Of a stretch of 36,609 nucleotides of DNA, positions 15,101-20,088 are shown piece by piece. The translations under genes were made by a program, and so were the position numbers. This DNA comes from Candidatus Kryptoniota bacterium. Lineage in GTDB: Bacteria > Bacteroidota > Ignavibacteria > Kryptoniales > JAKASW01. The stretch's first letter is position 1. The number at the start of each line of letters is the position of its first letter. Below the pieces are notes generated by a model. It saw only the letters and a list, made by a program, of their open reading frames with translations. It was not told where the DNA came from and did not search any database. The stretch is taken from positions 1 to 36,609 of the forward strand of contig JAHECO010000038.1 in the NCBI GenBank assembly GCA_024641705.1, in the 5' to 3' direction.

Positions 15101-17107
15101 CTATTTCTCCAGAACCAGTTTTATCGCGGTTGCCCTACCGGGCGTCGTGAGCAGGCATACGTACACGCCGCTGGCGAGATTTCCCGCGTCAACCCTGATC
15201 TCATGCAGACCCGACGCCTGAAAGCCGTGCGCCAGCGTCTCGACCCTCCTGCCGAGGATATCGAAAAGCTCCACCGTCACCATACCGGCTTCCGCGACGT
15301 GGTATACCACTCTTGTCATGCCGTTGAACGGGTTGGGATAGTTCTGCAGGAGCGTGTAGTCCACCGGACCGTTTCCGTTCTGTCGGACTTCGGTAATATT
15401 TTGGCCGGGGATTACGGCGAGTATCTTGTTCGAAGGATCGAGGACGACCGAGTCCGCGCCGGCCTCGAAATAGAACTTGAATGTCTGTTGACCGACTGAA
15501 TCGATTGCGGTAAAAAGAGTCATCTGCTTGCCGGAGTAGACACCGATGTCGATGGGCATCCTGAACAAAGATGCGTTCGTCTGCACCTGACTGATTGTCA
15601 CCGACAGCGTGTCCCCGACTTGAACGTACGACTTCGTGTAGACCGGATATCCTTTTCCCCTTATCCACTCGTCGAAGAACCAGCTCATGTCGGTCTGAGC
15701 TACCGTGTCGACGACGTTCTCGAAGTCCGACGTGACCGCGTTCCCATACTGATAATCCGAACGATATCTTCTCATGATGCCGAAGAACGCCGAATCTCCG
15801 ACGATATTGCGCAGCATGTTAAGCACCCACGCTCCTTTGTAGTATTCGGCCAGCCCGAAAATATATCCCTCCGGGGGCGCGTATATCGGATAGCGCAGCT
15901 GCGTGCTGTCTTCGAAGAAGTATCGGCTCGCGTAAAATCTCATTTCATCCTCGAACTGCGTCTGGCTGGCATGCTGAAGTTCCATCGCCTCCGAGTATGT
16001 TGCGAAACCTTCGTTCAGCCAGATATCCTTCCATGTTCCGAGTGTCACCATGTCTCCCCACCATTGGTGGGCAAGCTCGTGGGCGACATCTCTCCGGTCG
16101 AATTCATATTTCCTGTTAATCGTGGCAATGGTCTGATGCTCCATCCCGCCGTACCTGAACGGTTCAACTCCAGTCATGCCGTACTTGTCAAAGGGATAAT
16201 CGCCGTAGATCGAGGAATAGAATTTCATCATCGAAACAACAGTGTCGATGCTGCATTGATTGCTTTTCAGTGCTTCAAGTGAGTCCTCGGGATAGACGTA
16301 ATACTCGACCGGGATCGACCTGCCGCCGATCGTCACGGAGTCTCTAATTACCGCGAACCGGGCGGCTGTCGCGCACATGAGGTAGGTTGATACCGGGTAG
16401 TTCTCGCTCCAATAGAACGTTGAACTCCCGTCGCCGTTGTCCGTAGTGCTGTCCAGGCCGCCGTTCGAGGCAACCACAAAACCATTCGGCACTCTTACCG
16501 CAATCCTGCAGAGCGCCTTGTCCGAGGGATCGTCATAACATGGCATCCAACACCTTGCGTCGCTCGGCTCGCTCATGGTGTAGGCGACGGTCTGCGAGAC
16601 GGTGGGTTGTCCGGCAACTTGCTCCCCCTCGTAATAGATGTAGAATCCCTTCTGAAGCGAGTCCGGCGAAGGTGCAACGCCGGGGTCGATTACGTGATAA
16701 TACAGATCGACCACGCCGGTGTCGCCGGCATACAGCTGATGATCGAGGGTCACGGTAAGCTTACCATTGGAGGATTCGGTCGTGAGAGCCATTTCGCCCG
16801 AAAACGCCGAATCCACGCTCAAATAAGCAGGATCATTGTCCAATCTGATCGAATCAAGAGGGACCCGGAGTGACGGGACGAAGGTGATTCCCATCTTCCC
16901 GATGAACCCATGCGAACTGTCCGACAATGCGTCGCACCAATCCATGTACAGGTTGTACCGGATGACGTCATAAGAATGGGAGAACGTCGCCGGAGAATTC
17001 TGAAGCCCGCCGAGATGATGACGGTATGCCGCGATTCGGTTCAGAGCCGTTTGCCCGGCGGCCGTCGACGCGCAAAGGAGAAGGAATATCCAGAGGGGAG
17101 GTTTCAT
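15101..17107 (-). CDS. Secreted M1 family aminopeptidase with T9SS sorting domain
   Basis: A 668-residue zinc aminopeptidase of the gluzincin M1 family. It has a signal peptide (first 18 residues, cleaved near ASTAAG) and an N-terminal beta-saddle domain. The catalytic zinc site HELAHQWWGDM has His343, Glu344 and His347, with the third ligand Glu366 eighteen residues on in WLNEGFA. A Tyr in EYYKGAWVLNMLR probably stabilises the transition state. The exopeptidase motif usually written GAMEN is YGGMEH here. Residues 590-668 form the T9SS sorting domain beginning YPNPFN. Probably exported to the cell surface or released to degrade peptides. Its ATG overlaps the EamA stop as ATGA. Confidence 0.92.
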   Translation of the reverse strand: MKPPLWIFLLLCASTAAGQTALNRIAAYRHHLGGLQNSPATFSHSYDVIRYNLYMDWCDALSDSSHGFIGKMGITFVPSLRVPLDSIRLDNDPAYLSVDSAFSGEMALTTESSNGKLTVTLDHQLYAGDTGVVDLYYHVIDPGVAPSPDSLQKGFYIYYEGEQVAGQPTVSQTVAYTMSEPSDARCWMPCYDDPSDKALCRIAVRVPNGFVVASNGGLDSTTDNGDGSSTFYWSENYPVSTYLMCATAARFAVIRDSVTIGGRSIPVEYYVYPEDSLEALKSNQCSIDTVVSMMKFYSSIYGDYPFDKYGMTGVEPFRYGGMEHQTIATINRKYEFDRRDVAHELAHQWWGDMVTLGTWKDIWLNEGFATYSEAMELQHASQTQFEDEMRFYASRYFFEDSTQLRYPIYAPPEGYIFGLAEYYKGAWVLNMLRNIVGDSAFFGIMRRYRSDYQYGNAVTSDFENVVDTVAQTDMSWFFDEWIRGKGYPVYTKSYVQVGDTLSVTISQVQTNASLFRMPIDIGVYSGKQMTLFTAIDSVGQQTFKFYFEAGADSVVLDPSNKILAVIPGQNITEVRQNGNGPVDYTLLQNYPNPFNGMTRVVYHVAEAGMVTVELFDILGRRVETLAHGFQASGLHEIRVDAGNLASGVYVCLLTTPGRATAIKLVLEK

Positions 17108-18048
17108 CTCCGAGGTTCTTCTCCTCCCCGCGCAAGAACGGTGCCCGTCTTTGGACCGCGTTCGCCGTAAACATTAATCAACAGAACCCCTCCGAGGATC
17201 ATTGCCGAGCCAAGCAGAATCCCGGAAGGAAATTTCTCTCCGAGCACCAACGCACCCGATCCTATCGCCAGAAGCGGCGTTATGAACGAGGTCATCGAGA
17301 GAAGGACCACGCTTATATGTTTGAGCAGATAGAAGTAAATGACAAACGCCACGACCGAGCCAAAGACGGCAAGGTATAAGATCGCAAGGACGGTCGATAA
17401 GTTGAAGACCAGAGTGCTCCAGTCTTCAATGAAGAAACTTGTGCCCAGCAGAGTCACAGCGCCAAGACCCATCGGAATAAGGTTAATGAAAACCGGATCT
17501 ATATGGTAGCCATACTTCTTGACACTGACCGCCACGACGGCATTAAGGAAGGCGCTTGCGACGACTGCCAATACGCCTGCAGCCGCACCCAGGGAACCAA
17601 CCTTGAGATCTCCCCCGAAGATTACGACCAGCCCTGAGAAACCGAGAAGTATGCCGAAGACTCTCCAGAAAGAGAGCTCTTCGGTCTTCAGGAAAAGTCT
17701 TGAAAGTATGGCGGCAAAGAAAGGCATCACCGCGAACGTCACGGCCGTCAATCCCGACGTGATTCTCCCTTCGGCCCAGTAAACCAGACCGTACGGCACG
17801 CTGAACGAACCCAGTCCGACAAGCAGAAGAAAAATTGTTTCCTTGAGATCGAACCGGTATCTGTAATTTCTGAATTTCAGGATCGCAAGGATGAGTAGAG
17901 AGGCGATCACGAACCTTATTCCAGCGCTGAAAAACGGAGGGAGGGTAAAGATCGAAAACTTGATCGCGAGCCAGGTCGTCCCCCATATGACGCATATCAG
18001 GATGTAACCGAGCACCAGCTTCATGCTGTCCGGCGTTGAAGATGTCAT
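17104..18048 (-). CDS. EamA family (DMT superfamily) transporter
   Basis: A 314-residue inner-membrane protein with ten hydrophobic segments in two EamA repeats (about residues 12-143 and 158-293). It shows the typical CVIWGTTWLAIKFS start of the first repeat and VFGSVVAFVIYFYLLKHIS in the second, followed by a short basic tail. DMT carriers export amino acids or other small metabolites; the substrate here is unknown. It overlaps the M1 peptidase start by 4 nt and begins 4 nt after the PAP2 gene stop, so it is part of the same transcript. Confidence 0.88.
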   Translation of the reverse strand: MTSSTPDSMKLVLGYILICVIWGTTWLAIKFSIFTLPPFFSAGIRFVIASLLILAILKFRNYRYRFDLKETIFLLLVGLGSFSVPYGLVYWAEGRITSGLTAVTFAVMPFFAAILSRLFLKTEELSFWRVFGILLGFSGLVVIFGGDLKVGSLGAAAGVLAVVASAFLNAVVAVSVKKYGYHIDPVFINLIPMGLGAVTLLGTSFFIEDWSTLVFNLSTVLAILYLAVFGSVVAFVIYFYLLKHISVVLLSMTSFITPLLAIGSGALVLGEKFPSGILLGSAMILGGVLLINVYGERGPKTGTVLARGGEEPRR

Positions 18049-18052
18049 CTTC

Positions 18053-18775
18053 TCAGAAAGTGATTCTCAAATTTATGAGTGTTGGGGCGGCGCTGAGCTG
18101 AATACCCATGTCGTCACCCAAAACCTTCTCGCGAAGCTTCGTAATTTGCGGGGCCAGCATGTGGATCGCAAAAGCCGATGCGGTTCCGAGGAAAGCACCT
18201 GCCAGTACGTCGCTTGGGTAGTGGAGACCGAGATAAATACGTCCATAGCCAACAAAGGCGGCCCAGGCATAAGCCGGGATGTACACGTACGGCTTGGGGT
18301 ACCGAAGGGTGAGTGCGGTCGCGATCGCGAACGCTGCCGTGGTATGTCCCGAAGGCATTGAGTACTTGTCGGCACTGTCCAGGTGGCCGGTATGGACTCC
18401 TGTAAGAGCGACATAGGGCCTCTCGCGTTTCACGATGAAATTCTTTATCGGGTAGTAGAGGACATATGCCAGAGCTTCAGTCACACCGACAATCACGCCG
18501 GTGTCGAAGGTGTATGCATCCTTCTCTGCAAGGCCGACGCCGCCGAAAACAAGCGGAGTGGCAATGGCAATCGGGAGCACGAGGTTGTCGTTCGTCCCGA
18601 CGGATGCGTCCAGGAACCCTGAGCGCGAGTCGTTGACACTCCTGAAAAGGCTGACGTCCCAGGAGGGTGGCTGGGCTTGGGCTAATGTCGGTATGAGTAA
18701 CAGGAATGAACAAAAAAAGGCGGCCACCGTGGACATGCCAAGTTGCCGCCTGTAAAGGTCATTATCGATTTTCAT
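18053..18775 (-). CDS. PAP2 superfamily phosphatase (membrane or periplasmic)
   Basis: A 240-residue phosphatidic acid phosphatase type 2 family protein. The N-terminal segment (about 12-34) is a signal peptide or anchor ending in AQAQ. The three active-site motifs are KNFIVKRERP (residues 111-120, one residue longer than the usual spacing), PSGHTTA (141-147, catalytic His144) and GRIYLGLHYPSD (Arg179, His185, Asp189). Likely substrates are lipid phosphates such as undecaprenyl diphosphate or phosphatidate. Its ATG overlaps the lytic transglycosylase stop by one base (TAATG), so both may act in peptidoglycan or lipid-carrier turnover. Confidence 0.9.
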   Translation of the reverse strand: MKIDNDLYRRQLGMSTVAAFFCSFLLLIPTLAQAQPPSWDVSLFRSVNDSRSGFLDASVGTNDNLVLPIAIATPLVFGGVGLAEKDAYTFDTGVIVGVTEALAYVLYYPIKNFIVKRERPYVALTGVHTGHLDSADKYSMPSGHTTAAFAIATALTLRYPKPYVYIPAYAWAAFVGYGRIYLGLHYPSDVLAGAFLGTASAFAIHMLAPQITKLREKVLGDDMGIQLSAAPTLINLRITF

Positions 18776-19497
18776 TACCTCTGGAGAACATTCCCGTAAA
18801 TATTGTAATAGTGCATCACATTTTCAACGTAGCTGAGCGTTTGGTCATACTCACCGAAATAGCCCGAAGTGGGCTTACCTGCACTCCAGATGTGTCTGTG
18901 AAGAGGGGCATATCTCGCAGAAAGCAGCGGGAGAGCCGACTTTACCGCGACCCAGGAATTGGGTTTGTCCCCCAGGAACTGGGCCACCGTCTGCGCGTCC
19001 TCAACGCGTGTGTAACCGCAATTGTACGCGGCAACGGCCAACTCCACCCTGTTCTTCCCTTCGGCTTCCGGGAAGTCTCTGATCATATCCCTCAGATGAA
19101 TCACTCCGAGCCTGAGGTTCATGTACGGATCCGAGATATCGTCGATATTGTGGAGAGACGCCAGTTGAAGCCCGGTGGACGGCATTATCTGCATGAATCC
19201 CTCCGCCCCCCTGTATGAGACAGCGCCCGGGTCGAATGCAGACTCCTGACGGAGAACAGCCAGGACCAGGCGCCAGTCGACTCCATAAGTGTTGCTGACG
19301 TTCCGAAGCCCCTTACCGTATTCTGTCAAAAATATGTAGGTTTGACGGTCCAATTTGGGGATGGAATTCTCTGGAATAACGCTGCTACTGTATGAATAAC
19401 GGGCAGCATCGGATTCACTAGTAACGAGAATGGCTATCCCAACAAAAACCACGGCGACCAACCGGATAATCAGACCGCGATTGAGTGGTCTATTCAT
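18775..19497 (-). CDS. Lytic murein transglycosylase, SLT domain
   Basis: A cell-wall hydrolase that cleaves the MurNAc-GlcNAc bond with formation of 1,6-anhydro-MurNAc. The N-terminus carries a signal anchor (about residues 8-27). The SLT goose-type lysozyme fold follows, with RQESAFDPGAVS containing the catalytic Glu (residue 85), GFMQIMPSTG, and AVAAYNCGYTRVED. Two ATGs are adjacent (19500 and 19497). AGGAGG is only 1 nt from the first and 4 nt from the second, so I prefer 19497. It heads a five-gene run and is preceded by a long structured leader with its own promoter, which suggests separate post-transcriptional control of this operon. Confidence 0.9.
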   Translation of the reverse strand: MNRPLNRGLIIRLVAVVFVGIAILVTSESDAARYSYSSSVIPENSIPKLDRQTYIFLTEYGKGLRNVSNTYGVDWRLVLAVLRQESAFDPGAVSYRGAEGFMQIMPSTGLQLASLHNIDDISDPYMNLRLGVIHLRDMIRDFPEAEGKNRVELAVAAYNCGYTRVEDAQTVAQFLGDKPNSWVAVKSALPLLSARYAPLHRHIWSAGKPTSGYFGEYDQTLSYVENVMHYYNIYGNVLQR

Positions 19498-19500
19498 CAT

Positions 19501-19672
19501 TCCTCCTAAGCATGTTCGCGATACTCAGCGTTCGCCGTCCGGAGGGTCTCTACGGACAGCCCATCATTCCCTTATGTTTCTATCGGGGTGCCTCAGACGG
19601 TTCAGTTAGTCTGTCACCCCACCTTAGGTAACTGGATCAACACTCTCCCTGTTCCCGATCTTGGGAACTGCT
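19501..19672 (-). promoter_or_regulatory. Structured 5' leader of the lytic transglycosylase operon (candidate riboswitch or cis-regulatory RNA)
   Basis: Between the predicted transcription start near 19672 and the ribosome binding site, the minus-strand RNA can form three stable hairpins. P1 is 19651-19656 with 19663-19668 (6 bp, 6-nt loop). P2 is 19585-19590 with 19615-19620 (6 bp) plus 19594-19598 with 19609-19613 (5 bp) and a 10-nt loop. P3 is 19537-19541 with 19553-19557 plus 19542-19544 with 19548-19550. The P2 loop (19603-19608) is complementary over 6 nt to 19629-19634, a possible pseudoknot. The layout resembles metabolite-sensing leaders of cell-wall hydrolase genes, but I find no match to the ydaO c-di-AMP or GEMM c-di-GMP consensus that I can recall. 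Confidence 0.5.
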
Positions 19673-19678
19673 CCTTAT

Positions 19679-19707
19679 ATGTTAAATCAATTCATCAAAT
19701 TCGCCAA
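19679..19707 (-). promoter_or_regulatory. Sigma70-like promoter of the lytic transglycosylase operon
   Basis: On the minus strand, TTGGCG (19702-19707) and TAACAT (19679-19684) are separated by exactly 17 nt. Transcription would begin near 19672, immediately before the first hairpin of the structured leader. The -35 hexamer is half of a perfect inverted repeat (19702-19708 with 19715-19721) that could be an operator. Confidence 0.5.
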
Positions 19708-19896
19708 ACATTTTTTTGGCGGAAATTGTCGATTGTCACACAGCCAATCGAAAATGACTTGATTTTGGGAATTCCTCAACGAGGAAATTTGGAGTTGACC
19801 GGCCGAATTCTGTTGAAGTGTGCCGACGCCCACCAGTTCGGCCCAAATTCAAACAAAAATGCCACTTCTTACCCCCCTGCAGTCGCAGTCCGAACG
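19708..19896. other. Hairpin-rich intergenic segment between two minus-strand operons
   Basis: No gene is supported here. Several inverted repeats follow one another: 19702-19708/19715-19721 (7 bp), 19729-19735/19745-19751 (7 bp, 9-nt loop), 19772-19777/19781-19786 (6 bp, 3-nt loop) and 19801-19807/19837-19843 (7 bp, long loop). One or more may end transcription of the block that finishes at 19897, although none has a good T-run on the minus strand. Confidence 0.4.
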
Positions 19897-20088
19897 CTAC
19901 TTGTCCTTGGCATCGGCATACTTGTCGAAGATCTCGCGCAGTCTCTTCATCGAGATAGAGTCGAGGTCCTCATCGTCCTTGTCCCGTTTAACATACATAT
20001 CGTAGTCATAACGGTCTTTTGGAAGCATTTTCGAGGTTTTGTACCTCAAGGCGGCGATCATCTTCCTCTGGTCTGCCAGCGTGGTCAT
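19897..20088 (-). CDS. Small highly charged protein of unknown function
   Basis: A 63-residue protein rich in Lys, Arg and Asp with no hydrophobic segment and no recognised domain. Its ATG overlaps the stop of the upstream GlmU-like gene as ATGA, which is good evidence that it is translated. The region MYVKRDKDDEDLDSISMKR is strongly charged and the rest is probably helical. The coupling suggests it works with, or is made in proportion to, the uridyltransferase. It could also be a remnant of a longer protein. Confidence 0.6.
   Translation of the reverse strand: MTTLADQRKMIAALRYKTSKMLPKDRYDYDMYVKRDKDDEDLDSISMKRLREIFDKYADAKDK

Follow-up and report, generated by a model that had tools for sequence, protein, structure and literature searches.

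A candidate regulated promoter and structured 5′ leader ahead of a transglycosylase operon in one bacterial genus

On balance, the SLT-PAP2-EamA operon analysed here appears to be preceded by a dedicated regulated promoter and a structured 5′ UTR that are special to its genus. All coordinates refer to the window, the whole stretch of 36,609 nucleotides that was analysed. Comparison of orthologous sequences shows a conserved promoter block that occurs once in each genome, and a leader whose base pairing has been kept although most of its letters have changed.

Results

Gene neighbourhood of the operon

The operon lies on the minus strand and is read in the order SLT transglycosylase, PAP2 and EamA.

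18778..19500, minus strand, SLT-domain transglycosylase gene (Pfam SLT, 7.5e-24)
18056..18775, minus strand, PAP2-superfamily phosphatase gene (Pfam PAP2, 7.8e-22)
17107..18048, minus strand, EamA-like transporter gene (Pfam EamA, 2.8e-38)

On this strand, 396 nt separate the ATG of the SLT gene at 19500 from the upstream 63-codon gene (stop codon 19899-19897). For the SLT gene, the second ATG (19497) is a likelier true start than the ATG at 19500, because the conserved ATG that follows GGAG in the relatives aligns with 19497. The 63-codon gene (19897-20088, minus strand), conserved and of unassigned function, sits between an NTP-transferase gene and the leader and was kept at every genus locus checked.

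A search of the order revealed the SLT gene in 12 of the 13 genus genomes (that of the window among them), with identities of 64-100%; distant SLT genes were also found in another family, whose upstream regions, compared by eye, bore no resemblance to that of the window. Six further records were duplicates of six of the 12 orthologous loci. The order NTP-transferase, small gene, SLT, PAP2 and EamA is kept in the orthologues as far as the retrieved DNA reaches, with the exception of L017, where group II intron matches follow SLT. These matches (L017, 2416-2705, plus strand; RF02001, E = 2e-20, and RF01998) lie directly 3′ of SLT and occupy the place of PAP2 within the retrieved stretch. Retention of the leader in close relatives, on which the preliminary description of this DNA had made its proposal depend, was observed: the promoter-leader arrangement is present in all 12 genus members in which the SLT gene was found.

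Promoter and operator-like block

The region upstream of the leader contains three overlapping features.

19679..19708, minus strand, promoter (-35 TTTGGC, 19708-19703; 18-nt spacer; -10 TAACAT, 19684-19679)
19702..19721, minus strand, inverted repeat CGCCAAA-N6-TTTGGCG (arms 100% complementary, centre at about -40)
19704..19740, minus strand, operator-like block TGTGAC-N4-GACAA-N6-CCAAA-N6-TTTGG (inner dyad overlapping the -35)

The promoter with 17-nt spacing described earlier is present as an alternative -35 register (TTGGCG, 19707-19702, ahead of TAACAT), and the layout, written as TTTGG-N18-TAnnAT, recurs in 11 of the 12 orthologous upstream regions, with L010 as the deviant. The window promoter scored below the cut-off of a consensus promoter scan. 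Mean pairwise identity was 63% in the promoter block (-72..+1), compared with 30% further upstream and 38% in the leader. The 37-bp block pattern TGTGACNNNNGACAANNNNNNCCAAANNAATGTTTGG gave a single match in 10 of the 13 genus genomes when three mismatches were allowed, located at the SLT locus upstream of the gene; reversed-pattern controls gave 0 matches in the 13 genomes. The CCAAA..TTTGG dyad is kept in most orthologues and takes the form CGCAA..TTTGG in L011 and L012. From the coordinates, the centre of TGT-N8-ACA lies near -61.5 and that of the CCAAA-N6-TTTGG dyad near -40, placing the two parts of the block about 22 bp, or roughly two helical turns, apart. We infer that a DNA-binding regulator, acting as an activator, would bind the DNA at the 19704-19740 block. 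A CRP/FNR-type protein is possibly a candidate for this site (minus strand).

The Bacteroidota-type -7 box is TAnnTTTG. A variant of the transcript start, compatible with the other readings, takes AATGTTTG as such a box and would lengthen the leader by about 25 nt; TGTTTGG is indeed nearly invariant in the orthologues, but the TAnnAT 18 nt further on is likewise kept in 11 of 12, and we regard this variant as a minor possibility.

Composition of the leader

The leader of about 170 nt claimed earlier was recovered, with a predicted length of about 172 nt in the window and 143-172 nt across the 12 orthologues.

19501..19672, minus strand, untranslated leader of about 172 nt (start at about 19672, inferred from sequence)
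19651..19668, minus strand, 5′ hairpin H1, exact inverted repeat GTTCCC/GGGAAC (19668-19663/19656-19651)
19585..19620, minus strand, middle two-tier hairpin, exact inverted repeat GGGGTG/CACCCC (19620-19615/19590-19585)
19535..19559, minus strand, last hairpin, 10-bp stem with one mismatch, loop AGACC

H1 is also visible in L017 and L019. The middle hairpin, whose second tier is CAGAC/GTCTG (19613-19609/19598-19594), is present in both the MFE and the centroid folds of the window leader, and a hairpin at this position was found in the folds of most relatives, with the register judged by eye. The three hairpins of the preliminary description stand as far as the inverted repeats and the 19559-19535 hairpin are concerned, but the fold of the window leader is no better than those of shuffles. 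A further exact inverted repeat, CAGTTA/TAACTG (19634-19629/19608-19603), underlies the pseudoknot that had been proposed between the middle-hairpin loop and 19629-19634. This proposal was not borne out: 7.6% of shuffles contain a 6-nt complement to the loop, and none of the seven relatives with a mapped loop has one. A closing stem between the leader 5′ end and GAACATGCT, visible in the window by eye, was rejected, being missing in most relatives. Inspection by eye revealed no conserved uORF frame in the leader.

The leader also contains a fragment of a dispersed palindromic genus repeat of the TGTCATTCCCGC...GGGAATGACA type (19564-19587, minus strand). The fragment matches one end of the repeat (CCCGATAGAAACATNNGGGAATGA), is identical at 22 of 22 specified bases to copies in G006 and G011, and overlaps the 3′ arm of the middle hairpin; up to 14 copies of the repeat occur per relative genome with two mismatches allowed. 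A DNA search of 41 genomes with the leader returned only itself, this repeat end and short chance matches. The leader element has one strong-scoring copy per genome, and a search of 149 class genomes gave no strong match beyond the genus. Outside the genus, the sister-clade RNA model matched two loci, L056 and L057, weakly (E = 0.028 and 0.032). The available leaders are few (12) and come from a single genus, which counts against a dedicated promoter and structured 5′ UTR.

Covariation within and between clades

In the sister clade (L010-L014), a 26-pair, three-hairpin structure had 87.7% of its cells paired, a fraction inflated because the structure was partly derived from those sequences. 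In ten of the 26 pairs both partners had changed, and the covariation score was reached by 0 of 500 shuffles, a signal that was lost when the partners were slid. The main covarying helix corresponds to the hairpin at the middle-hairpin position. For the last hairpin in five orthologues of the window's clade, 91.7% of cells were paired, three pairs changed on both sides, and the score was reached by 1 of 500 shuffles. Of the compensatory changes that had been named as support for the stems and the pseudoknot, those in the sister clade and the last hairpin were found, while the pseudoknot is not conserved.

Model R3, built on the last hairpin, picks out the corresponding position in three leaders of the sister clade (E = 0.017-0.21), among a few chance matches; this model-based result suggests that the last hairpin may be homologous between the two clades. 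Two extra R3 matches were taken as chance, one in L064, where the neighbouring ORFs resemble an integrase and a small antitoxin, the other in L065 antisense to a MetH-like gene (names assigned by eye). The sister-clade RNA model R1 did not recognise the leaders of the window and its clade, which counts against the favoured explanation. The sequence-only model R2, with a weak match inside the window's leader (E = 0.24), was no worse than R1, and structure is therefore no help across clades.

A more specific version of the favoured explanation is that translation would be controlled by an RNA-binding protein or a partner RNA that binds the leader, for example in envelope-homeostasis feedback. 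The loop AGACC is kept in four of the five members of the window's clade (UGAUC in L016), and the last 60 nt show 47% identity against 38% for the whole leader, both consistent with such a site; the loops differ in the sister clade, however, and the partner remains putative, so that we hold this version as tentative and on the unlikely side.

Folding stability of the leaders

The window leader alone folds at -54 kcal/mol (z = -1.2), with 20 of 200 shuffles equally good; by itself it has no above-chance fold, which counts against a structured UTR. The 12 orthologous leaders gave a mean z of -1.85, with equal-length upstream controls near zero; as the leaders are related, these z values are not independent. 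Folding of column-shuffled alignments gave z = -6.2 for L010-L014, -6.0 for L013/L014, -3.5 for the five members of the window's clade and -2.4 for L017/L019. Aligned with L016, its nearest relative, the window reached only -1.2, again a point against the favoured explanation.

A long but otherwise unremarkable 5′ UTR, whose hairpins are incidental and where selection acts on the promoter only, would account for the window's z of about -1 and the low leader identity. We consider this improbable, given that sister-clade covariation exceeds all shuffles, the last hairpin covaries as well, and the leaders are stable as a set.

Search for riboswitch features

The Rfam search gave no match in the window, with noise only at a permissive threshold, and nothing relevant in the relatives' leaders, in agreement with the earlier remark that the conserved words of ydaO and GEMM RNAs are absent. 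RF00379 (c-di-AMP riboswitch) had 0 matches in the window and was above gathering score in 0 of the 13 genus genomes; the search control worked, finding it in B. subtilis and C. glutamicum. RF01051 (c-di-GMP-I) had no match in the window, nor in the relatives' loci at a permissive threshold, and a whole-genome search of the genus found none, the control genomes being equally silent.

Conserved covarying structure, a general criterion for riboswitches, was found, strongly in the sister clade and for the last hairpin only in the window's clade. The leader contains no terminator, the SD sequence has an unpaired probability of 0.24-0.65 across leaders with no common masking helix, and no strongly conserved ligand-binding core was found across the genus (38% mean leader identity). 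The preliminary description had taken the leader for a candidate riboswitch of a new or divergent class. What persists of this is a conserved folding that belongs to no Rfam family; identity as a riboswitch is not supported, as there is no strongly conserved core, terminator or consistent SD masking, and the element is limited to one gene and one genus.

A new small-molecule riboswitch class, whose hairpins would form an aptamer altering translation of the transglycosylase operon, is very unlikely. The covarying hairpins do stand ahead of a cell-wall hydrolase gene, a DAC (c-di-AMP cyclase) domain is encoded in 13 of 13 genus genomes, several leaders have the word UCUGAGG next to the middle hairpin, and PMC9960051 provides a precedent, a c-di-AMP riboswitch at a cell-wall-related peptidase in Corynebacterium glutamicum. 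Set against these points are the absence of a strongly conserved genus-wide core, of a visible expression platform, whether a terminator or a masked ribosome-binding site, and of a conserved pseudoknot, the failure of the sister-clade model to detect the window leader, and confinement to one gene in one genus.

Discussion

A dedicated regulated promoter with a structured 5′ UTR is favoured because orthologues share the gene order and a single-copy promoter block; because the leaders are stable as a set, the L010-L014 alignment folds with z = -6.2 and the covariation scores are reached by 0 and 1 of 500 shuffles; because identity is low in the leader (38%) compared with the promoter (63%), with one copy per genome; and because there is no strong match outside the genus, no terminator and no consistently paired ribosome site. 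The leader hairpins would act on the mRNA itself, through 5′-end stability or processing, ribosome-site spacing or protein binding. Probably they influence how stable the mRNA is or how it is translated, or they bind a protein, rather than a small molecule. The leader is a weak riboswitch candidate at most; ligand binding is possible, not indicated. There is only a slight chance that a new genus-restricted ligand-sensing RNA class controls this peptidoglycan-hydrolase operon, perhaps for an envelope-derived signal.

In an uncultured group, the region would add a structured leader not described before, confined to one genus and served by a dedicated promoter present in single copy, to the upstream side of an operon for cell-wall hydrolysis; selection preserves the folding of this leader more than its letters. 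At present, it is a modest regulatory element. If the leader does sense a signal, envelope turnover would be tied to control at the level of RNA by a means other than the known cyclic-dinucleotide riboswitches.

Comparison with known systems

The c-di-GMP-I (GEMM) riboswitch, RF01051, is a 5′ leader RNA often found ahead of surface genes. The window element is likewise a 5′ leader RNA, but it and its relatives do not match this family. In Corynebacterium glutamicum, a cell-wall-related peptidase is under the control of a c-di-AMP riboswitch (PMC9960051). RF00379 (ydaO-yuaA) resembles the window element in controlling cell-wall genes, and the genus analysed here encodes the cyclase domain; the family differs in having no match in the window or the 13 genus genomes. 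The yjbJ motif (WRC-39-1) of Streptococcus is a covarying hairpin leader restricted to one genus, upstream of a gene that its authors annotate as a lytic transglycosylase (PMC11109978). It has two hairpins, the second consistent with a terminator, and was classed as a weak riboswitch candidate that is possibly protein-bound (PMC11109978). It belongs to another phylum and gene, and the window leader, having no terminator, does not share the arrangement of two hairpins with a terminator. By description, however, the two are alike in being limited to one genus and one gene, in having hairpins with covariation, and in ranking as weak candidates.
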